DNA of 64,000 bases from Gloeocapsopsis dulcis (GTDB lineage: Bacteria; Cyanobacteriota; Cyanobacteriia; Cyanobacteriales; Chroococcidiopsidaceae), in contig NZ_CP119968.1 in NCBI RefSeq assembly GCF_032163395.1, positions 1,659,501 to 1,723,500 of the forward strand, given 5' to 3'. Each line of letters begins with the position of its first letter. Within the stretch, counting starts at the first letter, position 1. Below, one piece after another: positions 15,539-52,741 of the stretch. The notes beneath the pieces are model-generated. The model saw nothing but the letters and a program-made list of their open reading frames with translations, made no database searches and had not been told where the DNA came from. The translations under genes were made by a program, and so were the position numbers.

Positions 15539-16385
15539 AGTAAGGGCAAGACCTCTGCAAACTAAACTCTAAGTGGGAGGCAATATTGTTAAAAATTGCC
15601 CTAAAGCGCCAACCAACAGCGATCTTTTTAATCCAATCAGCACGTTCCACCCCTCATAGGGCATGAAAATCATCTGAGTAGTCAGTAATAGCTACCCAGA
15701 TGAGCTTAAGCAAGTAGATTTGTAGAACTACGGTAAATCGGTAGGAATACCGTAGTTAACTACAAGAATTAAATGTCGCATATGTAGCTTGAAAAAGCAA
15801 GTACATATTTAACAATTGCAAAATTTAAAAATAGACCTGATTTGCTCTAGTACGACAAAATACAGTGATCGCTGTCACACATCATGCTGATTATACCGAC
15901 AATCAATTTAATTTTTAAGCTGTATACATTATTAATATTGACTTTTAAGTAGATATATGTAAGATATGAACAAATCTAGTATGATTCGACCTGTACTTTT
16001 AATTTTAATCAGTTCTATTACTGCTTACTTAGTTGAAGAGAAAGTAGCTGAGTTGCAATAACTTAATCGCAAATCGATTGTGTAAGCTTCAGTTTAGTTA
16101 CTGATAAGAGCTAACTTGTTGATAAGACAGTTCCGAGCAAAAGTTTTGAGGCTTAACAGCTTTTCTAACTTTAGAGAGAGTACGTAATGAAGATCGTGAT
16201 GTCATAACTATATCGATAAAAATATGTTCATAGCCTCAAGGATCTTAAATAACGAACGTTGGTGAATTTCAAGTTAAAGACCATGATGATTGAGTAGTTC
16301 ATACAGAATAAGGTGACTCGGCAGACGATCTTGAATTTGTTTCTAATCTTCTCAATATGCTGAAAATTAAATCAGAAGATCACTA
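15539..16385. other. 850-base intergenic region with an orphan operator-like palindrome
   Basis: No convincing gene. It holds an AGGGCAA ... TTGCCCT inverted repeat (15543-15602) just after the RTX stop, the sulfur-box-like palindrome at 15726-15757, and a possible 31-codon frame at 15966-16061 encoding a mostly hydrophobic peptide, for which I see no good ribosome site. The rest is AT-rich. The region sits next to the IS6 scar, and its original gene may have been lost. Confidence 0.45.
15726..15757. promoter_or_regulatory. Palindromic operator-like motif (orphan copy of the sulfur-box candidate)
   Basis: A perfect 10-base inverted repeat, AACTACGGTA and TACCGTAGTT, separated by 12 bases that contain GGTAGGAA. 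The same arrangement recurs upstream of cysH (46155) and of the arylsulfatase (52370). Here no sulfur gene is adjacent on either side. Confidence 0.6.
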
Positions 16386-42392: not shown

Positions 42393-42443
42393 CGTACAGT
42401 GTGAGTAAGTTGCAAGTATACACTGACTTACTTGTGTTGTACG
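42393..42443. terminator. Long imperfect inverted repeat between convergent genes
   Basis: CGTACA and AGTAAGT on the left pair with ACTTACTT and TTGTACG on the right, with a few mismatches in the stem. It lies between the secreted-protein gene and mgtC-like gene, which converge, and overlaps the last codons of the latter. It could serve as a two-way transcription end, but there is no clear T-run. Confidence 0.35.
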
Positions 42444-42967
42444 TCCTCAGTAGATACTGTCTCCTTAGCCTTAATGTTTCTTAGCTGGTATTCATTAAGA
42501 CGAATCAGAGGAGACTTTTTCAATTTTTTTACTCCACTGAGAACCACTAATGCCATCACAGTACCAACTAGACTCATGCGCCATAGTCCACAACCTGCTG
42601 CTGCCCCTAATCCCGCAGCTAGCCAAATCGTAGCAGCCGAAGTTAGCCCTTTAACTTCCAGCTTATTCAACTTTTGATGCGATTGCTGTAAAATCATTCC
42701 CGCGCCTAGAAATCCTACTCCTGTGGCAACACCTTGCAACGTTCTACTTAGTGCATTAGTTGAGTAGAAGGTACTGTCACCATCTACCTGCAAGGGAATC
42801 ATGACAAACGCAGCAGCACCTAGACTCACGATCATATATGTTCTCAAACCAGCAGGTCTACCAGGCTGTTGACGATTAATACCAATCGCGCCCCCAATTA
42901 CCAATGCGCTAGTCAGTCTAACAATAATACTCTGCCAATCGCTTGGACTGAAAAATATCGAGTTCAT
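42428..42967 (-). CDS. MgtC/SapB-family membrane protein
   Basis: A 179-residue membrane protein with about five transmembrane helices in the first 140 residues. RLTSALVIGGAIGINRQQPGRPAGLRTYMIVSLGAA is the family signature region, here interrupted only for length: key elements are GGAIGINR and RPAGLRT. A ThrGly-rich GVGFLGAGMIL motif follows near 83-93. MgtC proteins are linked to magnesium limitation and inhibition of F-type ATP synthase in pathogens; in free-living cyanobacteria their role is unclear. The short polar tail after 145 lacks a full ACT-like domain. Confidence 0.85.
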   Translation of the reverse strand: MNSIFFSPSDWQSIIVRLTSALVIGGAIGINRQQPGRPAGLRTYMIVSLGAAAFVMIPLQVDGDSTFYSTNALSRTLQGVATGVGFLGAGMILQQSHQKLNKLEVKGLTSAATIWLAAGLGAAAGCGLWRMSLVGTVMALVVLSGVKKLKKSPLIRLNEYQLRNIKAKETVSTEDVQHK

Positions 42968-43185
42968 TACCTACACTTATAAAAAAACTGGATAACAGCA
43001 GCCAAGAGCGATCGCCTTTTCTCAACCTAAAATACGGTAATCCGCTCGACTTACTCGTGATTAAGATTAAGAATAGGTTAATAACAACAAGACAGCAAAA
43101 AATATTCTTGTTCTACGGCTACCTTGCTTTAACAGTGCCATCCATCACCATCGGTGTTAGGTCTGCCTTGAATCGTTGAATGTAT

Positions 43186-44559
43186 CTAAATCCAAATATC
43201 AGAAGTACAGTCTCCGCCAGGATAACGCATTTCATGGGCACGAGCTGGACCTGCGGGTTCTTGACCAAAGTCTACATAAAAGTCTTCATTAATTTTTAGA
43301 CCGCCATTTTCTGTATCGCAGTCAATTTGCAACATATAAGAACCACTCTTGGCGAGTTCTGGATAAAACTGGTTGTCCCAGGTACTAAACAGGGAATTGG
43401 TGACATAGAGACGTTTACCATCAAGACTCAATTGCAGCATTTGTGGTCCGCCTTGCAACTGATGTCCTTGGATTTCACCACCTTTACCCAGCAAGCCACC
43501 ACACCATACTTGACCTGTTAACTGAGGATTCCCTGGCTCTGAAATATCATATTGGCGAATGTCGCCATGCAACCAGTTGGAAAAATATAAATAGCGATCG
43601 CTCATTGAAATCAAAATATCCGTAATCAGCGATGGCACTGGAATTTGCCAGCCTTCGACATTAACCGATGGGATATCAATAACTTTCTCAACTTCCCAAT
43701 GTCCGTTAGATTTGTGCCAATGCCACACGTTACTACTTAATGCTGCACCAACAAAACCATGAGTACTATCAGGATCGTGATGAAAGCGGACTTCTAAAGG
43801 AATTAAGCCTTCCTCACCTAAATCAACACTTTGGACAATTTTATGCTTAGACCAATCCCAAAAATGGAGTTGATGACCGTAATTTCCTGCGGTGACATCA
43901 TTCAGGTCAAAACCAGGATAATAAGTTTTCGGTGCGCCCCATTCACTACTAACCATCACATTATGACGTGGTTGATACCAGAAGTCATAGTTAAACTTCA
44001 TTCCTGTAGACTGTTCCCAACGCCCCGCAATTTCAAAATCGGTGTCGAGTAACAAAAAGCCACCAGGCGCATTACCTTCACTGTCACCCAGCATCGAAAT
44101 CATCACATGACTATCCGCAAGGCAATGTACGGTATGAGGGGCAGTTAAATATGTTTTCTGTTTAATTTCTTCGGGTTCAATAACTTTATGTAGTTTGGGC
44201 GATCGCTTCTCTGCAACATCAATAATATAAATTCGGCTCGATCTTTGACCAGGAACAACTAAAAAGCGCCGCGACTTACTCGTATCACCATGACACGAAC
44301 TGCAAGCATTCCAACCAAAATGGTGCAACTCATCACCAACATATGGCATTGGTAAGCGATGAATGACTTGCGAATAGGTAGGTGAATCGGGATCAACGTC
44401 GATTGTTGCCAAGTAATCGGGTTCTTCAATTCCCGTACCTGTGTAGAGGGCAATTGTATACAGCAGCTTTTCTTGTTCGGCTTTTATTGCATCTGCTGGC
44501 GACGCATAACCTGGTCCACAGCAGGCATGATTACGATCACTTTGATGTAACTCAGCCAT
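43186..44559 (-). CDS. Selenium-binding protein 56 family methanethiol oxidase
   Basis: A 457-residue protein of the SBP56 family, beta-propeller enzymes known in bacteria as copper-dependent methanethiol oxidases that form formaldehyde, hydrogen sulfide and hydrogen peroxide. Visible family signatures are [14 protein letters not shown] near 84, [56 protein letters not shown] and the C-terminal [16 protein letters not shown]. His-rich motifs are candidate copper ligands. It has no signal peptide. It lies 15 bases after a CRP-type regulator reading frame and close to cysH and cysK, so a role in organic sulfur use is likely, by neighbourhood. Confidence 0.88.
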
Positions 44560-44574
44560 TTTCCCTACACCTCT

Positions 44575-45159
44575 TTAAATTTCGTAGTGCCAGAACGGTG
44601 GTTGATCTTGTAGGACAATAAATTGCCGACCTTGGCGCTGAATAATGCCTTGCTTTTCAAAGTTACTCAGTAGCCTTGTGACTGTGACGCGAGTTAATCC
44701 AACCAGTTCAGCAATGTCTTGATGAGTTAAGCGTAAATCAATAAGTTGTCCTTGCTCAACTTCTTGACCAAACCGTTTTGCTAGCCAAGCCAGTAAATGC
44801 AAAAGTGCTGTTTCCGCTTGTCGGCGGTGTAAGATCTCCATCAACTCCCCTAAGCGTTGAATGTGTAAAAGCATAGCTTCCACAACTTCTTGCCGATTGT
44901 CGGCTGATAATAAGGTTGCTTCTACAGGAGTCAAACATTCAATATACAAAGGGTCAGCTAGCGATAATCGCTTGCCAACAACATCTCCTGGTCCCCATAA
45001 TCCCAAAGTAACGTATGTTCCTTCCTCAAAGATAGTTAAAGTGCGAACTGCTCCAGTTTTGATGAACTAGAGACGATCCTGCTTCAATGGAAGAAAACTG
45101 CGACGTGTAAATTTCGATGTTGAATGAAAAGACTGAGGCGCAACAAGAGAAGCAGTCAT
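44575..45159 (-). pseudogene. CRP/FNR-family regulator interrupted by an in-frame amber codon
   Basis: Reading from the ATG at 45159, codons 1-30 end RRSFLPLKQDRL, then TAG at 45069-45067, then the same frame goes on FIKTGAVRTLTIFEEGTY and VTLGLWGPGDVVGKRLS. Cyanobacterial CRP-family proteins have a tryptophan-type residue at this place, so TGG to TAG is a likely cause. The rest holds the dimer helix (about 90-115) and a winged helix-turn-helix, LTHQDIAELVGLTRVTVTRLL, that looks intact. A shortened product from a TTG at 45006 would lack most of the cyclic-nucleotide-like domain. A sequencing error cannot be excluded. The methanethiol oxidase gene follows 15 bases downstream. Confidence 0.75.
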
Positions 45160-45242: not shown

Positions 45243-45971
45243 TTATAGGTGAATACCACATTCTGTTCTCCCCATACCCCGCCAGCGACCAGCACGTTCA
45301 TCTTCGCCAGCACCTACTGGTGTTGTTGTTGGTTCATCTCCAATACTGGGATAGCCTCGATCGTGTAGTGGATTATAAAGTACGTTATGTCTCATGATAT
45401 ACTTCCACACATCTTGGCGTGTCCAACTTGCTAGGGGATTAATCTTGAGTCGCCCATGTTTGTCGCGCTCAAAAATGGGAGTATGCGATCGCGTTGCTGA
45501 TTGATCGCGACGTCTTCCGGTAATCCAAGCTGTCGCACCTAATTCATGTAGCCCACGTTGCAGTGGCTCAACTTTCGTTAAGTAATGATACTGCTCAAAG
45601 TCTGTTTTCCACAGTGACTCTCCATAGCGCGCCGCAAAACTTTCTCGCGAGTCAGCATCAGGTACTCGATAAACGTGTAAATCTAATTCATAAAGCTTTT
45701 GAGCTTCTCTCACAAGTGCCAAAGTTTCTGGAAAATGGTGTAGCGTATCCAGAAATAAAACTGGCATTGGAGGATTAGGAGCGATTTGGTAGAGCATATG
45801 CATAATTGCCATACCATTAACGTTAAAAGCACTACTTTGGATTAAACCTGGGCGCAAGTTTTCTAAGCACCATGCCAGGATATGGATTGGATGGACATCG
45901 GCAAAGCGCTGATTCAATTCGTCTAAATCAAGGCTATGTGTTGTTTTCGGTGCGACATCTTGAAGGAGCAT
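45243..45971 (-). CDS. cysH: Phosphoadenylyl-sulfate reductase
   Basis: A thioredoxin-dependent PAPS reductase of about 242 residues that makes sulfite in assimilatory sulfate reduction. LFLDTLHHFPETL, the TGRRRDQSATR loop for the phosphosulfate and the C-terminal ECGIHL with the catalytic Cys are seen. The paired cysteines of iron-sulfur APS reductases are absent, which favours PAPS as substrate. A GTG at 46037 would add 22 residues without family similarity, so I prefer the ATG at 45971. A palindromic motif that recurs before the arylsulfatase lies about 185-210 bases upstream. Confidence 0.88.
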   Translation of the reverse strand: MLLQDVAPKTTHSLDLDELNQRFADVHPIHILAWCLENLRPGLIQSSAFNVNGMAIMHMLYQIAPNPPMPVLFLDTLHHFPETLALVREAQKLYELDLHVYRVPDADSRESFAARYGESLWKTDFEQYHYLTKVEPLQRGLHELGATAWITGRRRDQSATRSHTPIFERDKHGRLKINPLASWTRQDVWKYIMRHNVLYNPLHDRGYPSIGDEPTTTPVGAGEDERAGRWRGMGRTECGIHL

Positions 45972-46154
45972 AGTTAGCTTTTTTTTGATCGTTTCTCTTG
46001 CGGCGAAAGTACACCCAACATCTGCTTGCGCTGTCACATCGTTACAAGTCCAAGCTTTTCAGCTATCTGGTGGCAATAGCGATCGCTGACTACCACTACT
46101 TGTTCGCATCGACAAAGTTTTTTGCTGATCCTGGGCATCCTCTCTTATTCTAAT

Positions 46155-46181
46155 CTACGGTATCTTGGTAGGAATATCGTA
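46155..46181 (-). promoter_or_regulatory. Sulfur-box candidate upstream of cysH
   Basis: CTACGGTA is followed, after four bases, by GGTAGGAATATCGTA on the plus strand; read toward cysH it is TACGATATTCCTACC then TACCGTAG. The two ends form an imperfect inverted repeat. The same arrangement occurs at 52370 before the arylsulfatase and at 15726. The region lies between divergent cysH and cysK and could control either or both. Confidence 0.65.
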
Positions 46182-46317
46182 TTTTTAATTCTCAAGCAAC
46201 TCAAAGTATGACATAGAAGGGAATTCAAAGCAAGTTTTAAAATACTAAAAACCCATCGGAAAACCGGAGTATAATGAAATAACTTGTTAAGCTGTGGCTG
46301 GTATAGCCTATAAAACG

Positions 46318-47298
46318 ATGCGAATTGCTCAAGATATCACTCAGTTAGTCGGTCGGACGCCCTTAGTACAACTGAATCGTATTCCGCAATCTGAAGGTTG
46401 TGTAGCAAGAATTGTGGTCAAACTAGAGGGAATGAACCCCGCAGCTTCTGTGAAAGATCGTATCGGTGTGAGTATGATTGCAGCAGCCGAGGAAGCTGGT
46501 TTAATTAAGCCAGGAAAAACTGTATTAGTTGAACCTACTTCGGGTAACACCGGTATTGCTTTGGCAATGGTAGCCGCAGCTAAAGGTTATCGGTTAATTG
46601 TCACCATGCCTGACACGATGAGCATTGAAAGACAAACGATGCTGAAAGCTTATGGTGTGGAATTGATTCTGACATCAGGAACACAAGGAATGCGAGGTGC
46701 GATCGCCCGTGCAGAAGAAATTGCAGCGAAAACTCCTAATTCATTTATGCCACAACAATTTCGTAATTCAGCAAATCCTAAAATCCATCGCGAGACAACC
46801 GCCGAAGAGATTTGGAATGATACTGATGGTGAAGTTGATATTCTGATTTCTGGTGTAGGAACAGGCGGTACGCTGACCGGAGTAGCTGAAGTTATTAAAG
46901 CACGTAAACCAAGTTTTCAAGCGATCGCTATAGAACCTATTGCTAGCCCAGTTCTTTCTGGTGGTAATCCAGGAGGACATAAAATTCAAGGAATCGGTGC
47001 GGGATTTGTTCCAGAAATTTTACGTACGGACTTGATTGATGAAGTCATCACAGTCAAAGATGATGATGCGATGCATTATGGTCGCCGTTTAGCACGCGAC
47101 GAAGGGTTGTTATCAGGTATTTCTTCTGGTGCCGCTTTAGCTGCAGCAATTCGAGTTGCAAAACGCCCAGAAAATGCCGGAAAGTTGATTGTGATGATTC
47201 AACCGAGTTTTGGCGAACGCTACTTGAGTACTCCTATGTTTAGAGAAGTAGAACAACCAGAAGCGCTTGCTCTAGTCGGAATCGGTGCTGATAATTGA
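46318..47298 (+). CDS. cysK: Cysteine synthase (O-acetylserine sulfhydrylase)
   Basis: A PLP enzyme of 326 residues forming cysteine from O-acetylserine and sulfide. The catalytic lysine is in [11 protein letters not shown] near 42; [12 protein letters not shown] binds the substrate carboxylate, and VGTGGTLTG binds the PLP phosphate. The C-terminus has [13 protein letters not shown]. An alternative start at 46294 adds eight residues, but the ATG at 46318 ([15 protein letters not shown]) fits the family. It diverges from cysH, so the two share a promoter region that contains the sulfur-box candidate. Confidence 0.92.
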
Positions 47299-47338
47299 GG
47301 TTAGATTTGGTAATGGGTAATAAGCTGTTACCACCGTT

Positions 47339-47360
47339 CCGCCTGGGAAACCACAGGCGG
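47339..47360. terminator. GC-rich hairpin between convergent cysK and sulfotransferase genes
   Basis: CCGCCTG and CAGGCGG form a perfect seven-base stem with an eight-base loop, 41 bases after the cysK stop. No T-run follows directly on the plus strand, so if it ends transcription it is not a classic intrinsic terminator. It may instead be a dispersed repeat. Confidence 0.45.
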
Positions 47361-47403
47361 CAATGCTTAATCTAGAGAAAGATAAAGTATTAAATTATTT
47401 TGC

Positions 47404-48285
47404 TCATAGTTTCAATTCAGAACAAAGACTTTCTACTTTCTTTTCTAAATGCCGAACATTCATCCAATCTCGAAAAGCCCATTCCTTCTCAGGTGTAACT
47501 TTGATCTGTTCAAGTAATGATTGATTAGGAAATTTACCTAGTAAGTCTTGAGTGTTGAGTTCTACAAAGATATCTATTGCTTCAGGAAAATAATAAGCAA
47601 TAAGTGTAGGTCTATAAATATCTGCGGTTTGGGTGTAAAGTAGTGAACGATCATAGATATCTGTTGCAGGCATTGCTAAATTCAAGTCAAATTTGGCATT
47701 AATTCCCTGAACGAACTGTTCTGTGTGATTAACTATGTTATCAACGCTAACTAAGAGACACTGATTAGGAAACTTGTGCAGAAAATTCAATAGTTTTTGG
47801 TTATAATGTATCCAAAGTTTGATTGCTAGCTCTGGATATTTCATAAATATCTCATCACCACGACGATAAAGAGAATCTACAACTTCCCAAGGTGAGCGGT
47901 AAATAAAAATAAACTTAGCATCTGGAAGTAGCTCAGCCCAAAAGTCCAGAAAAAGTGTTGTTCTTGGATCTTTCCATTCCCAAATGTTCGCTTGGGAATT
48001 TTTGCTGATAATTTCTTTGGCTTGCTGTCTGTAAGGTTCTTGAACTGGAATATTATCTTCTAATGTCCAACCAATCTCATCTAAACCTTGCGATCGCAAA
48101 ACCTCTTCATGAAACCTCACGAAATCTACATTTTCAAAAAAACCCTTAATATTTCCATGACCTGGTTCTAACAGTCTTTGCCCAATATCTAATCCGGCAT
48201 TTTGTAGTAAAGATGTAGTAAAAGACGTTCCAGAACGAGCCATTCCGGCAACGATCAAAACTGACTGTTTTCTCTTAACTTGCAT
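47404..48285 (-). CDS. Sulfotransferase family protein, copy A
   Basis: A 293-residue P-loop sulfotransferase. VLIVAGMARSGTSFTTSLLQ is the loop for the 5'-phosphosulfate of PAPS, and FIYRSPWEVVDSLYRR the 3'-phosphate site. These enzymes transfer sulfate to sugars of glycans or to lipids. It is a close copy of the gene at 49737; the first two thirds are nearly identical, the C-terminal third is more divergent. The usual GMHRSGTS has become GMARSGTS here, a change next to the loop. It is the last gene of a minus-strand run that starts with an arylsulfatase. Confidence 0.82.
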   Translation of the reverse strand: MQVKRKQSVLIVAGMARSGTSFTTSLLQNAGLDIGQRLLEPGHGNIKGFFENVDFVRFHEEVLRSQGLDEIGWTLEDNIPVQEPYRQQAKEIISKNSQANIWEWKDPRTTLFLDFWAELLPDAKFIFIYRSPWEVVDSLYRRGDEIFMKYPELAIKLWIHYNQKLLNFLHKFPNQCLLVSVDNIVNHTEQFVQGINAKFDLNLAMPATDIYDRSLLYTQTADIYRPTLIAYYFPEAIDIFVELNTQDLLGKFPNQSLLEQIKVTPEKEWAFRDWMNVRHLEKKVESLCSELKL

Positions 48286-48349
48286 AGATTCAGAAGTTTA
48301 TTCACTCTTACTTCTCAAAATACTAAAAAATTCATTAAATTCATATTGC

Positions 48350-48421
48350 TCATGCCAACCCTGGTACTGCTGTCTCTTCACTATCTGCTCTTTTCACTTC
48401 AAAATTATCCAGATAAACCAA
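48350..48421 (-). pseudogene. Duplicated tail of the small membrane protein gene
   Basis: The minus strand encodes VYLDNFEVKRADSEETAV and PGLA before a TGA. This matches the last residues (EAKRSEKEETVVPGLA) of the complete small membrane protein at 50701. It lies just upstream of sulfotransferase copy A, exactly as the complete gene lies upstream of copy B. It shows that the duplicated block began inside the small-membrane-protein gene. Confidence 0.8.
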
Positions 48422-48621
48422 TTAACTACAACTTTCGCACGTTTCAGGGGCTTTAGCTACTGCCTGCTATCTTAATCTAGCCAGAGTAATGAAAGAGAGA
48501 TATTTCTTAAATGCGATCGCCTCCGCTGATATCACTATCAGTTTGCCTTGGCTTTTTTGCCTCTTCACTTGCCTGGTTAATAACTGCTAAGTGCTAAATG
48601 TTTTCCATCTAATCCTTGGCT

Positions 48622-49635
48622 TTAGTCTTGCTGAAGTTCAGCGTACGACGCGCATGAAGTGCTGCTATTATTCTGCAAAATTTCTTGCCATGCTTTTACA
48701 ACGCTTTTCTCTTCTAATTGCAACGAGTACTGCAACGCTGTATCTCTGCCTATCTCGCTAACTGTTTCCCAAGTTTTGATTGCTGCTGGAAATGATTGGG
48801 TAATCATCTCTATCGTTTTAGCAATACTTAAAAAATCTCCAGGTTCAAACAAAAAGGTGGGATGCACATATTCGGTTATAGGTGCTACATTGTAAGCAAA
48901 AACTAAACATCCGCAAGCCATCGCCTCTAAAGGCATTAGCGGAAAGCCTTCCTCTTTACTTAAAAAGATAAATATCAAAGACTCCTGCATAATTTGGGCG
49001 ACTTCTACCTCAGTCTTATCCTCAATAAACACCCATTCGTATTCACTTAAATTATTTAATCCTTGTTCAGCACGGGATTGTAAGATATGATAAAGTAGAG
49101 TAATATCCAGAGGTCTTTTTGCCGGATTACAAGCTATCCTTTTTTTCTTTTTCTTTAGCGGTTGAAACTTAAACTTATCAGTATCAACTCCGCAAAATAC
49201 TCGAAAAATATCTAACTGAGGATAAGCAAACTTTAGGTAACTTTTATTGTGTTCTGAAACTACCAAAGCGCCTTTTACTTCTGCATGAAGATAAGGATAT
49301 GTTTGTGGTTTTTGCCTGTCAAATACATGAAATCCATAGTAAATATTTTGATTAAAGATTATTTTATTACCAGAAAAAGAAAGCATATCGTTACCCACAT
49401 CTTCTGGTAAGACTACGAAATCTTTCTCTTTATCAAATAAGCTATTAAAAGTATCTAAGTAGATAATTTTTGCATTATGGTTAAACCAAGTGATTTTAAA
49501 GTTTTTGGTGGTATGTAGAATGTATGACTCATAACCATGCTTGTTAAGAATTTCACTGTGTTTATAGATTTCCTTGTTACCTCCAGATGATTGATTGTCA
49601 CTAAAACAGAAATAAAATATCTTTTGGTGCCTCAT
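48622..49635 (-). CDS. Glycosyltransferase, GT4-like
   Basis: A 337-residue transferase with a GT-B donor domain: SKEEGFPLMPLEAMACGCLV near 228-247 carries the E-x7-E motif, and VAPITEYVHPTFLFEPGDF follows. The N-terminus (FSDNQSSGGNKEIYKHSEIL) replaces the common GGAE start. Five consecutive lysines occur near 160. It lies between the two sulfotransferase copies on the same strand. It may build the glycan that the sulfotransferases modify, which is inference from neighbourhood. Confidence 0.75.
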   Translation of the reverse strand: MRHQKIFYFCFSDNQSSGGNKEIYKHSEILNKHGYESYILHTTKNFKITWFNHNAKIIYLDTFNSLFDKEKDFVVLPEDVGNDMLSFSGNKIIFNQNIYYGFHVFDRQKPQTYPYLHAEVKGALVVSEHNKSYLKFAYPQLDIFRVFCGVDTDKFKFQPLKKKKKRIACNPAKRPLDITLLYHILQSRAEQGLNNLSEYEWVFIEDKTEVEVAQIMQESLIFIFLSKEEGFPLMPLEAMACGCLVFAYNVAPITEYVHPTFLFEPGDFLSIAKTIEMITQSFPAAIKTWETVSEIGRDTALQYSLQLEEKSVVKAWQEILQNNSSTSCASYAELQQD

Positions 49636-49736
49636 TTGATAAAGATAATAAACTGTTTTTTTATGACTAACTAATATAATTACAATAAAATCTAACTGAA
49701 TCTGTAGTTCTGTATCAAATAACTATGAAAAGGAAA

Positions 49737-50636
49737 TTAAAGCACTTTCACACGTTTTTTTAATTCAAAACGAAGGCTTTTAACTTTTTTTTCTAAATGT
49801 CGAATGTTTATCCAATCCTGAAAAGCCCATGTCTGCTCAGGAATTGCTTTAATCTGTTCAAGTAATGCTTCATCTGGAGAACTACCCCCTAAGATCTCTC
49901 TCTTGTTGAGTTCTGCGTAGACATTGATTGCTTCAGGGAAATAATAAGCAATCAGTGTAGGTCTATGAATATCCGCTGTTTGCGTGTAAAGCAGCGAACG
50001 GTCATAAATCTCGGCAGCAGGTTTGACTAAGTTCAAATCAAATTTATTATTAATTTTATAAATAAATTCTTCTGTATGACTAACGATGCTATAAACACTG
50101 GTTAGTAAGCACTGGTCGGGAAAACTATCAAGAAAATTTAATATTTTTTGATTGTAATGTATCCAAAGTTTGACTGCTAGCTCTGGATATTTCATAAATA
50201 TCTCATCACCACGACGATAAAGAGAATCTACAACTTCCCAAGGTGAGCGGTAAATAAAAATAAACTTAGCATCTGGTAGTAACTCAGTCCAAAAGTCCAG
50301 AAAAAGTGTTGTTCTTGGATCTTTCCATCCCCAAATGTTCACTTGGGAATTTTTGCTAATAATTTCTTTGGCTTGCTGTCTGTAAGGTTCTTGAACTGGA
50401 ACCTTATCTTCTAATGTCCAACCAATCTCATTCAAACCTTGCGATCGCAGCACCTCTTCATGAAACTTAACAAAATCTACATTTTCAAAAAAACCCTTAA
50501 TATTTCCATGACCTGGTTTTAACAATCGTTTCCCAATATCTAATCCGGCATTTTGTAGTAAAGATGTAGTAAAAGATGTTCCAGAACGGTGCATCCCAGT
50601 GATGATTAACACTGACTGTTTTCTCTTAGCTTGCAT
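49737..50636 (-). CDS. Sulfotransferase family protein, copy B
   Basis: A 299-residue P-loop sulfotransferase with the standard VLIITGMHRSGTSFTTSLLQ loop and FIYRSPWEVVDSLYRR. The gene is probably the ancestral copy, because the complete small membrane protein gene is still upstream of it. Compared with copy A it ends with an extra KKRVKVL. In both, a conserved WKDPRTTLFLDFW segment follows the PAPS loop. Acceptors are unknown; a sulfated exopolysaccharide is the natural candidate. Confidence 0.82.
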   Translation of the reverse strand: MQAKRKQSVLIITGMHRSGTSFTTSLLQNAGLDIGKRLLKPGHGNIKGFFENVDFVKFHEEVLRSQGLNEIGWTLEDKVPVQEPYRQQAKEIISKNSQVNIWGWKDPRTTLFLDFWTELLPDAKFIFIYRSPWEVVDSLYRRGDEIFMKYPELAVKLWIHYNQKILNFLDSFPDQCLLTSVYSIVSHTEEFIYKINNKFDLNLVKPAAEIYDRSLLYTQTADIHRPTLIAYYFPEAINVYAELNKREILGGSSPDEALLEQIKAIPEQTWAFQDWINIRHLEKKVKSLRFELKKRVKVL

Positions 50637-50700
50637 AATTTCAGAAATTTATTCTCTCTTACTGCTCAAAATACTTAAAGATTCAGTAATTTCGTGTTGC

Positions 50701-50931
50701 TTATGCCAACCCTGGTACCACTGTCTCTTCCTTCTCCGATCTTTTCGCTTCAATAATTATCCAAATAGGCCAAATAAAGACAATCATTAAACTAGCAAAC
50801 AAGAATAAAATATTTTTCCAGCAGGAGAATGAAGGCTGGTGACTAATATTTCTCAAAAGAGCTAACCAGGAAATTACACCAGACAAAAGATAACTAACAG
50901 TTACTAAAGATACAAAAAAGGTAATAATCAT
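50701..50931 (-). CDS. Small membrane protein of unknown function
   Basis: A 76-residue protein with two hydrophobic segments (about 4-25 and 43-64) and a charged tail EAKRSEKEETVVPGLA. I do not recognise a family; two-helix proteins of this kind are sometimes phospholipase_D-nuclease-like N-terminal (PLDc_N) domains, and the WPIWIIIEAKRSE segment has that look. It starts 22 bases after the arylsulfatase stop and is followed by sulfotransferase B, so it is part of that operon. A GTG nine bases upstream is another possible start. Its 3' end has been duplicated at 48350. Confidence 0.6.
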   Translation of the reverse strand: MIITFFVSLVTVSYLLSGVISWLALLRNISHQPSFSCWKNILFLFASLMIVFIWPIWIIIEAKRSEKEETVVPGLA

Positions 50932-50953
50932 AACTTGCACTTTTATTTTTTAT

Positions 50954-52351
50954 CTAGGCAGATAACTTACCTGGCATATATCCTTTTGCTAAAGAAAGAT
51001 GTGTTGGATAAAGATTAGAAAACACAGGAAATTCGGGAGATTCTACACGTAAACTCTTACTCTGCAAAATATCTGCAATTCTTTGCACAACCTCAGGATA
51101 TTTGTTTGCGACATTGCGCTGTTCGCTGACGTCCTTTTCTAGGTCATACAATTCAATTGGTCGGTCAATTCCATGACGTACAGCTTTCCATCGATTCATC
51201 CGAATTGCTTGCTCAAAGCCTCGTTCGTGAAATTCCCAATAGAGAAATTCATGGTTATTTGCTGGTTGACTCAGTAGCACAGGTAACATCGATATTCCAT
51301 CAATACCTTTTGGTGTTGGAATTCCGGCAATTTCTGTTGCGGTTGGCAGAAAGTCCCATAGTGCATAGGGCTGATGATATTCTCCTGGTTGAATTGTTCC
51401 TAACCAACGAGCAATCATCGGTACGCGAACACCGCCATCATAGAGATCGCGCTTAATACCATTGAGTGGTCCATTACTATCAAAGAATTCTGCGGTAGCA
51501 CCGCCTTCTTCGTGTGGTCCATTATCGCTGCTAAAGAAAACTATTGTGTCTTCTTCTAAATTTAATTCTGCTAACAGAGCTAAAATTCTACCTACGTCTG
51601 CGTCTAGAAAGGAAATCATCGCAGCGTAATTTTTTTGCTGTTGCGGCCAAGGTTTGTGAGAATAGGGAGCATCGCTTGGTACTTGCATTCCCTCATCACC
51701 TAACTCATTATTAGCATGAGGGATGGTGTAGGGTAGATATAAGAAAAATGGTTCGTCTTGCTTGCGGCGAATAAAATCTAGCGCTTCTTGAGTAAATAGA
51801 TTATGTGAGTACGTACCTGGTGAAATTGGAATTCTTTGCTGTCTCCAAAGATAGCTAGGGTAATAATCATGGGCATGTACGTGATTTAAGTAGCCAAACC
51901 ATTCATCAAAACCTTTAAGATGTGGCTCTCCTGTAGAACCAGATCCTCCTAAACCCCATTTACCAAACATTGCAGTGGTGTATCCTGCTGCTTTGAGAAT
52001 CTCGGCTATAGTAATGTCTTCTGCTAGTAAGGAAATATCATCTGCTCCATTGTTACCACGTATCCGGCAATGACCTGTATGATAGCCAGTCATTAGCGTA
52101 CAACGCGAAGGAGCGCAAACTGTACTGCCAGAGTAAAAGTCAGTAAAACGCATTCCCTCCCTTGCCATTTGGTCAAGATGGGGTGTTTTAATATACTTCT
52201 GTCCATAACAACCGAGATCGCCATAACCTAAATCATCTGCAAGAATCAAAATAATGTTTGGTCGGCGTTGTGCCTGTGTAGCACTGTCTACACCTCGGCT
52301 TGTTTTGGTGTATTGACTCGTAACCAAATTGTGGACAGAGAGTTTACTCAT
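50954..52351 (-). CDS. Arylsulfatase-type sulfatase
   Basis: A 465-residue formylglycine-type sulfatase. PNIILILADDLGYGDLGCYG holds the metal aspartates (39, 40). VCAPSRCTLMTG has the C-x-P-S-R motif with Cys79 as the residue to be converted to formylglycine. Later segments, FGKWGLGG, FSSDNGPHEEGG and the C-terminal region, are typical. No signal peptide is visible in the 30 residues before the domain. It releases sulfate from organic sulfate esters. The gene starts 19 bases from a palindromic motif shared with cysH and heads the sulfotransferase run. Confidence 0.9.
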   Translation of the reverse strand: MSKLSVHNLVTSQYTKTSRGVDSATQAQRRPNIILILADDLGYGDLGCYGQKYIKTPHLDQMAREGMRFTDFYSGSTVCAPSRCTLMTGYHTGHCRIRGNNGADDISLLAEDITIAEILKAAGYTTAMFGKWGLGGSGSTGEPHLKGFDEWFGYLNHVHAHDYYPSYLWRQQRIPISPGTYSHNLFTQEALDFIRRKQDEPFFLYLPYTIPHANNELGDEGMQVPSDAPYSHKPWPQQQKNYAAMISFLDADVGRILALLAELNLEEDTIVFFSSDNGPHEEGGATAEFFDSNGPLNGIKRDLYDGGVRVPMIARWLGTIQPGEYHQPYALWDFLPTATEIAGIPTPKGIDGISMLPVLLSQPANNHEFLYWEFHERGFEQAIRMNRWKAVRHGIDRPIELYDLEKDVSEQRNVANKYPEVVQRIADILQSKSLRVESPEFPVFSNLYPTHLSLAKGYMPGKLSA

Positions 52352-52369
52352 GCATTTACTCCATACAAT

Positions 52370-52395
52370 CTACGGTAATTTGGTAGGAATACCGT
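52370..52395 (-). promoter_or_regulatory. Sulfur-box candidate upstream of the arylsulfatase
   Basis: CTACGGTA, four bases, then GGTAGGAATACCGT on the plus strand, with ACGGTA and TACCGT as inverted ends. It lies 19-44 bases before the arylsulfatase ATG, a position where a bound repressor would block transcription or translation initiation. It matches the copies at 46155 and 15726 closely. Confidence 0.7.
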
Positions 52396-52741
52396 TCTTT
52401 GGTTGTACATAGCAGTATTGCACAGCAAATTTAGAAAAGCAAGAGCAAGAATTTAGGATTTTGAGTAAGAGAAATATGTATATAAAAGCTTGGGCAAACC
52501 AAGAGCTGCCTACAAAAGCCTTGCCCTGCCTGGGTTTCAATTTATATTAAAGGAAAGTTTTAAATAAAACCTAAACTTTTTGAATTTAAAAGTCACACAA
52601 AACAGAATTTGAATAGAAATGTTTTGAGTTACAAAAAAACTTAAATACTGAAAGTTGAGCGAAGAAGCGGAGATTATGAATCAATCCAAACGCGATCGCA
52701 CAACTTGCAAAGAATCGGCAAAAACTCCCACTACTGCAATG
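52396..52741. other. Intergenic region upstream of the arylsulfatase
   Basis: About 345 bases, AT-rich, without a convincing gene. It presumably carries the arylsulfatase promoter. A 29-codon plus-strand frame at 52678 has no supporting signal. Confidence 0.4.

Follow-up and report, generated by a model that had tools for sequence, protein, structure and literature searches.

A sequence motif that occurs three times in a 64,000-nucleotide stretch of the cyanobacterium Gloeocapsopsis dulcis (contig NZ_CP119968.1, forward-strand positions 1,659,501 to 1,723,500; hereafter the window) is probably the operator of a sulfur-acquisition regulon of cyanobacteria, a reading to which we assign a probability of about 0.8. 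As judged from the DNA sequence, a protein would bind the operator as DNA, and would most likely act as a repressor. What we describe is a new operator and a regulon of known type; no description of the motif was found in the open-access literature searched, a search that mostly leaves out subscription papers. The sulfur-scavenging switch of cyanobacteria is poorly known, since an array study of Synechocystis 6803, in the passages available, names possible signalling systems and no proven regulator (PMC2491639). The operator, its gene list and the candidate proteins make the sulfur regulator of many cyanobacteria directly searchable and testable.

The three copies all lie on the + strand. Scores are those of R1, a sequence-only profile built from 31 sites (alignment A1) out of 36 distinct sites; left out of the motif set were L011, with a poor core and no fitting gene, and L035 and L039, which are not cyanobacterial.

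46152..46185 (core 46155-46182), + strand: operator copy in the gap between cysH and cysK, 39.0 bits
52367..52400 (core 52370-52397), + strand: operator copy before a sulfatase gene, 39.6 bits
15726..15758 (core 15728-15755), + strand: third operator copy, a perfect dyad, 39.8 bits

The pattern CTACGGTA-N4-GGTAGGAATA begins at 15728, 46155 and 52370, and no match was found in any of 100 dinucleotide-preserving shuffles of the window. A preliminary description had reported the motif at 46155 and 52370, as found here, and a third copy at 15726, which in fact begins at 15728; its view that three chance matches in 64 kb are improbable is borne out by the shuffles. It had also placed the 46155 copy upstream of cysH. 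The copy does adjoin cysH, but the gap is shared with the divergent cysK. With up to two mismatches, GGTAGGAATAnCGT matched the same three places only, each with zero mismatches, although three matches to this shorter pattern were also reached in 3 of the 100 shuffles. Searching the whole genome (5,618,434 bases) for CTACGGTAnnnnGGTAGGAATAnCGT with up to three mismatches returned three matches, all of them the window copies, versus one for the reversed pattern.

The arms, CTACGGTA and TACCGTAG, are inverted repeats separated by 12 bp. The intervening core, GGTAGGAA, is asymmetric, so the motif, earlier called a palindrome, is palindromic only in part. Relative to the perfect dyad CTACGGTA-N12-TACCGTAG, the copies at 15728, 46155 and 52370 carry zero, two and two mismatches, respectively, and three matches at up to three mismatches were reached in 1 of 100 shuffles. 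The wider set of sites has the consensus AATCTACGGTAAATCGGTAGGAATACCGTA-TTT, and the information over 117 unique sites resides in the arms (TACGGTA and TACCGTA) and in the core between them.

Scanning the G. dulcis genome with R1 at E<=0.01 gave five matches, of 39.8, 39.6, 39.0, 24.9 and 21.6 bits, with the next at 14.3. Four of the five precede sulfur genes: cysH/cysK, the sulfatase, an sbpA group and a second sulfatase. The two weaker copies are more than 1 Mb away and are likewise placed before sulfur genes. A gap of 16 bp separates the fourth site from sbpA, behind which come two CysT/CysW-like genes and a NIL-domain gene. The fifth is 103 bp upstream of the second sulfatase gene, itself divergent from apparent groES and groEL.

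The motif is conserved well beyond this genome. An exact 18-base pattern was found in eight stretches of genome contigs, six cyanobacterial and two from Firmicutes (L035 and L039), which we took as chance. Among 60 relatives, our genome counted, 27 had matches, at 39 places versus 6 for the reversed pattern. At E<=0.01, R1 found matches in 149 of the 388 genomes that sample the class, and in these 149 candidate sulfur-regulated genes can be listed by sequence. We examined the gene context of 66 sites, taken from loci by class-scan rank minus L149 (the same place is represented by L243). A sulfur gene was faced within 350 bp by 48/66 sites versus 119/1459 control positions, which came from the same sulfur-rich loci and fell mostly within genes; only 2/66 sites lay inside an open reading frame (ORF) of at least 150 amino acids, versus 1106/1459 controls. 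The matches are thus not spread at random, and the earlier proposal of a sulfur-response operator is supported both in the G. dulcis genome and across the class. A larger set of 120 sites includes loci fetched for a nearby CRP-family gene, and CRP counts in that set are biased.

Across the class, the genes faced encode SbpA, ABC ATPases of the SsuB/CysA kind, SsuA, CysH, CysK, sulfatase and rhodanese, as well as a NIL-domain protein and a hexapeptide-repeat (CysE-like) protein. Each label denotes similarity to a cluster from which one or a few members had been scanned; the ABC ATPase label pools SsuB, CysA and perhaps others, and "CysE-like" denotes a hexapeptide-repeat match alone. A gamma-glutamyl-cyclotransferase-like gene faces the site in L151, L110, L119 and L029, and the corresponding cluster (c33, one member scanned) occurs in three class-scan loci, 46-79 bp from the site. 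Such targets suggest glutathione turnover as a source of sulfur. Compact sulfur clusters carrying genes for CRP-family and Rrf2-family proteins, cysK, cysA and R1 sites were seen on the Pseudanabaena plasmid ABRG53c (L172) and in L249.

The sites occupy a constrained position relative to the genes they face. Among sbpA-facing sites, 27 of 28 have the same orientation, and in 19 of these 27 the start codon, as taken, falls 14-25 bp past the site. Upstream of the motif, in the direction of the gene, lies a predicted sigma-70-like promoter, often with TTGC-T and a 17-bp spacer. In scoring with a hand-made matrix, in 21 of 46 cases the best predicted -10 element fell 20-30 bp upstream of the motif, compared to a mean of 6.7 and a maximum of 15 in 200 shuffles. 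The main site would therefore sit at about +10 to +37 of the predicted promoter. The predicted promoters of the sulfatase and cysH genes in the window share this layout; for the sulfatase, the operator core starts ~17 bp past the -10 hexamer.

52414..52442, - strand: promoter-like TTGCTT-N17-AATACT, predicted for the sulfatase gene
46205..46233, - strand: promoter-like TTGCTT-N17-CATACT, identified by reading, predicted for cysH, with the operator downstream

A site at about +10 to +37 suits a repressor. The earlier description had suggested a repressor site; the position of the motif just downstream of the predicted promoter fits that claim, and from this position we deduce probable repression. 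Second copies of the motif were also common, occurring within 190 bp of 36/116 sites versus 15/445 control windows, a count in which neighbouring sites of the same locus may each serve as the other's second copy (L057, L040 and L249). The second copy was on the promoter side in 35 of the 36 cases and was often weaker.

We propose that a protein recognizes the dyad, the main copy of which would lie just past the predicted transcription start; in sbpA, sulfatase and related genes, the ribosome site would follow immediately. In cells replete with sulfur, this protein would block otherwise good promoters, perhaps aided by the second site present at about a third of the sites. When sulfur is scarce, it would release the DNA and the genes would be switched on together. 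In G. dulcis, the derepressed genes would be cysH (probably with cysK), both sulfatase genes and sbpA together with its permease genes; a small RNA may be derepressed as well. That the target transcripts respond to sulfur is proposed by analogy with Synechocystis 6803, where, according to the passages available, sbpA-cysTWA belongs to a gene cluster affected by sulfur starvation (PMC2491639). More speculatively, and we think this extended version rather doubtful, the regulon may span the class, with one protein acting through a pair of operators on either side of the promoter (an upstream one and another at about +23), a sulfur-responsive small RNA in this genus, and a CysR-like regulator in the course of being lost and replaced in several lineages that keep the operators.

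One plausible binder, although we give it less than even odds, is a CysR-group regulator of the CRP family, with a C terminus ending in WHYEI. Such a protein could act as an activator at the promoter-side copy, as a repressor at the downstream copy, or as both, and would control its own gene. The window contains the remains of one:

44575..45006, - strand: C-terminal part of a CRP-family regulator (CysR-like group), its upstream frame interrupted by an in-frame TAG

This gene (44575-45156, - strand) lies between cysH and a gene for SBP56, and the TAG falls early in it. It is intact in one genome of the same genus (G002) and broken in another (G001). Among the 150 CRP matches and 150 R1 sites listed, 18/109 CRPs with a full C terminus were within 20 kb of an R1 site versus 0/41 short-type paralogues (p 0.002), full and short being defined by where the match to the query ends. 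Seven CRPs among the matches listed, from three genera (four from g87, two from g129 and one from g137), have a site within 400 bp upstream. Across the 388 genomes, 110 have both site and CRP, 39 the site only, 101 the CRP only and 138 neither, counts in which phylogeny is not controlled. In a tree of 53 rows, proteins of the WHYEI type formed nearly one group (2 changes), with the CRPs of Synechococcus elongatus-like genomes beside them at modest support.

CysR of S. elongatus is a CRP-family activator. Here, the CRP-family nature of the S. elongatus-like copy at L239 was confirmed, and the gene order at that locus is a CysA-like gene beside sbpA-CysT/W-NIL-CRP-CysT/W. The passages available of a study of S. 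elongatus describe CysR as a global regulator of sulfate-assimilation genes, place cysR in the cys operon of strain PCC 7942 and give no CysR binding site (PMC12016511). The sites described here share with CysR their sulfate transport and assimilation targets, CysR relatives adjoin some of them, and an S. elongatus-like genome has the dyad in its cys operon. They differ in their repressor-like position, as CysR is an activator, and in a geometry that is not the usual one of CRP or NtcA sites. NtcA is a CRP-family protein that binds the box GTA-N8-TAC in cyanobacteria. Although the NtcA box is likewise a cyanobacterial nutrient operator bound by a CRP-family protein, the spacing of our dyad (GTA-N12-TAC) is 12 rather than 8, there is an additional asymmetric core, and the sites do not fit the NtcA box. 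The CRP candidate also does not accompany the site everywhere in intact form, as no CRP was detected at E<=1e-25 in 39 of the 149 site-bearing genomes. A CRP gene was within 4 kb of the site in just 2 of 50 class-scan genomes (3 with G233, which was left out of the list).

Several observations weigh against the operator reading itself, some of them also against CysR as the binder. The promoter matrix was made by hand. Of the 66 class-scan sites, 18 face no labelled sulfur gene, and 5 of these 18 face no ORF; other non-sulfur targets, besides the gamma-glutamyl-cyclotransferase-like cluster, include TPR proteins, methyltransferases, a porin/aldo-keto-reductase pair and single cases. No protein gene adjoins the third window copy, with no facing ORF of at least 75 amino acids within 600 bp (L001). 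The candidate CRP gene is interrupted in G. dulcis and broken in G001, and no CRP with a full C terminus was found at E<=1e-25 in G004, G010 or G014, which keep their sites; a G004 paralogue, on a long branch, does join the tree close to the WHYEI group. The plasmid pANL carries sulfur genes that, according to the title of a cited reference, depend on CysR; it has neither an R1 site nor a dyad at up to three mismatches. Finally, in two genomes of an S. elongatus-like genus (G070 and G089), dyads at three mismatches are no commoner than matches to the reversed control.

Because of this control, only matches with zero or one mismatch count in G070 and G089. Each genome has one dyad with the 12-bp spacing, with one mismatch in G070 and none in G089, and both lack the GGTAGGAA core. 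The G070 dyad lies between a CysA-like gene and sbpA, in a cys operon that also holds a CRP-family gene, and the G089 dyad is at a similar distance from its CRP gene; G070 is also 87% identical to the srp region of pANL. Since these dyads lack the core and pANL lacks the site, it appears that the arms are what is general here, and that genes can depend on CysR without having the site.

A second, more tentative candidate is a repressor of the Rrf2 family, one that would operate like CymR of Bacillales and sense the supply of cysteine, possibly via CysK. CymR, as described together with CysK in the passages available, is an Rrf2 repressor of cysteine genes in Bacillales (PMC2940859); no CymR consensus appears in the passages available of this and one other paper. 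The resemblance lies in a single operator for many sulfur genes, in probable repression, which the operator position suits, and in an Rrf2 gene beside cysK in some genomes. Homologues occur in 334/388 genomes, and an Rrf2 gene (Pfam PF02082) shares several clusters with cysK and CRP. Within 4 kb of a site, an Rrf2 gene was found in 3 of 50 class-scan genomes (4 with G233, left out of the list) and in nine genomes over all loci; near class-scan sites, CRP and Rrf2 genes are thus about equally frequent (2/50 versus 3/50). Of 29 Rrf2 matches, 25 were within 5.1 kb of a CRP with a full C terminus and 7 had a listed R1 site no more than 5 kb away, although these 29 were picked by hand from roughly 150 listed. 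In contrast to the CymR arrangement, the one Rrf2 copy listed for G. dulcis, of two matches, is at C1:1742021, about 30 kb from the nearest site.

The considerable remainder of the odds on the binder goes to a protein not seen here or to another mechanism. Near the sites there are 309 otherwise unlabelled ORFs; keeping no more than two per cluster left 279, of which 145 and 80 were scanned. After such thinning, Rrf2 or CRP frequencies cannot be read from these scans; they come instead from the unthinned 4-kb class-scan counts. Each scan listed 25 families, and no further type of regulator was conspicuous among them. LysR domains were found in 2 of the 80 ORFs and were not among the 25 families listed for the other 145. 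CysB and Cbl of enterobacteria are LysR activators; they control the same pathways, whereas the operator here is a strict, long dyad. Response regulators of the NarL type lay near a few sites, and we rejected them because their cluster was mixed and their occurrence inconsistent.

The motif might instead be a cis-acting RNA element of the 5' leader, in which a hairpin of the two arms, just upstream of the ribosome site, controls translation or termination. We consider this improbable. The strong orientation bias and the narrow range of distances to the start codon would suit such an element, and the arms can pair in RNA in 86.2% of cells. The covariation score was 0.089 versus 0.077 in shuffles (17/500 as high), and 9 cells had changed on both sides versus 4.6 in shuffles (16/500 as high). 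However, pairs with changes on both sides numbered 3, versus 2.8 in shuffles, and a DNA dyad would covary as well as a hairpin. Most promoter-side second copies would lie outside the transcript, which favors DNA binding, and a search of Rfam at the gathering threshold found no matches in the window. A mobile repeat, a recombination site or a chance similarity of no regulatory role is very improbable: although the three exact copies share one strand within 37 kb and one is an orphan, the gene context (48/66 versus 119/1459) led us to reject mobile repeats and recombination sites, as do conservation in many genera, intergenic placement and distant copies before sulfur genes in the same genome.

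The orphan copy at 15728 may belong to a small RNA. The segment 15636-15800 (- strand) is a possible sulfur-controlled small RNA, the promoter and end of which are predicted from the following features:

15772..15800, - strand: promoter-like TTGCTT-N17-GACATT, directed leftwards across the third operator
15671..15702, - strand: strong, conserved hairpin downstream of the third operator, possibly the end of the small RNA

G001 and G002 largely retain the -35 element, the operator and the hairpin, as well as most of the spacer, and conservation runs on past the hairpin. A 137-nucleotide stretch, present in 3/60 genomes (G. dulcis included) and all of this genus, folds better than 200/200 shuffles (z -4.66), in part because of the dyad within it. 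Scans with consensus patterns listed neither a promoter nor a terminator at this site.

The genes that adjoin the other two window copies are:

45243..46037, - strand: cysH, PAPS reductase (Pfam PF01507, E 2.6e-52)
46294..47298, + strand: cysK, cysteine synthase, divergent from cysH (Pfam PF00291)
50954..52351, - strand: sulfatase (Pfam PF00884, E 7.2e-62)

By reading, the likelier start of cysH is the ATG at 45971. The relative of cysK in G001 scores above the NCBIfam threshold for cysK. Between cysK and the sulfatase gene are two very similar genes that by reading alone look like sulfotransferases (47404-48285 and 49737-50636, - strand), which flank a third gene (48622-49635). The gene for SBP56, a 56 kDa selenium-binding protein (43186-44559), is near cysH here and likewise in G002, G004, G006, G010 and G014, while G001 has fragments only. 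One further match in the window is weak:

43028..43054, - strand: weak operator-like match, 11.8 bits, E 0.016

It lies 61 bp before a gene of the MgtC family (42428-42967), and MgtC/SapB genes are also found among the sulfur genes on pANL (L169) and on the Pseudanabaena plasmid.

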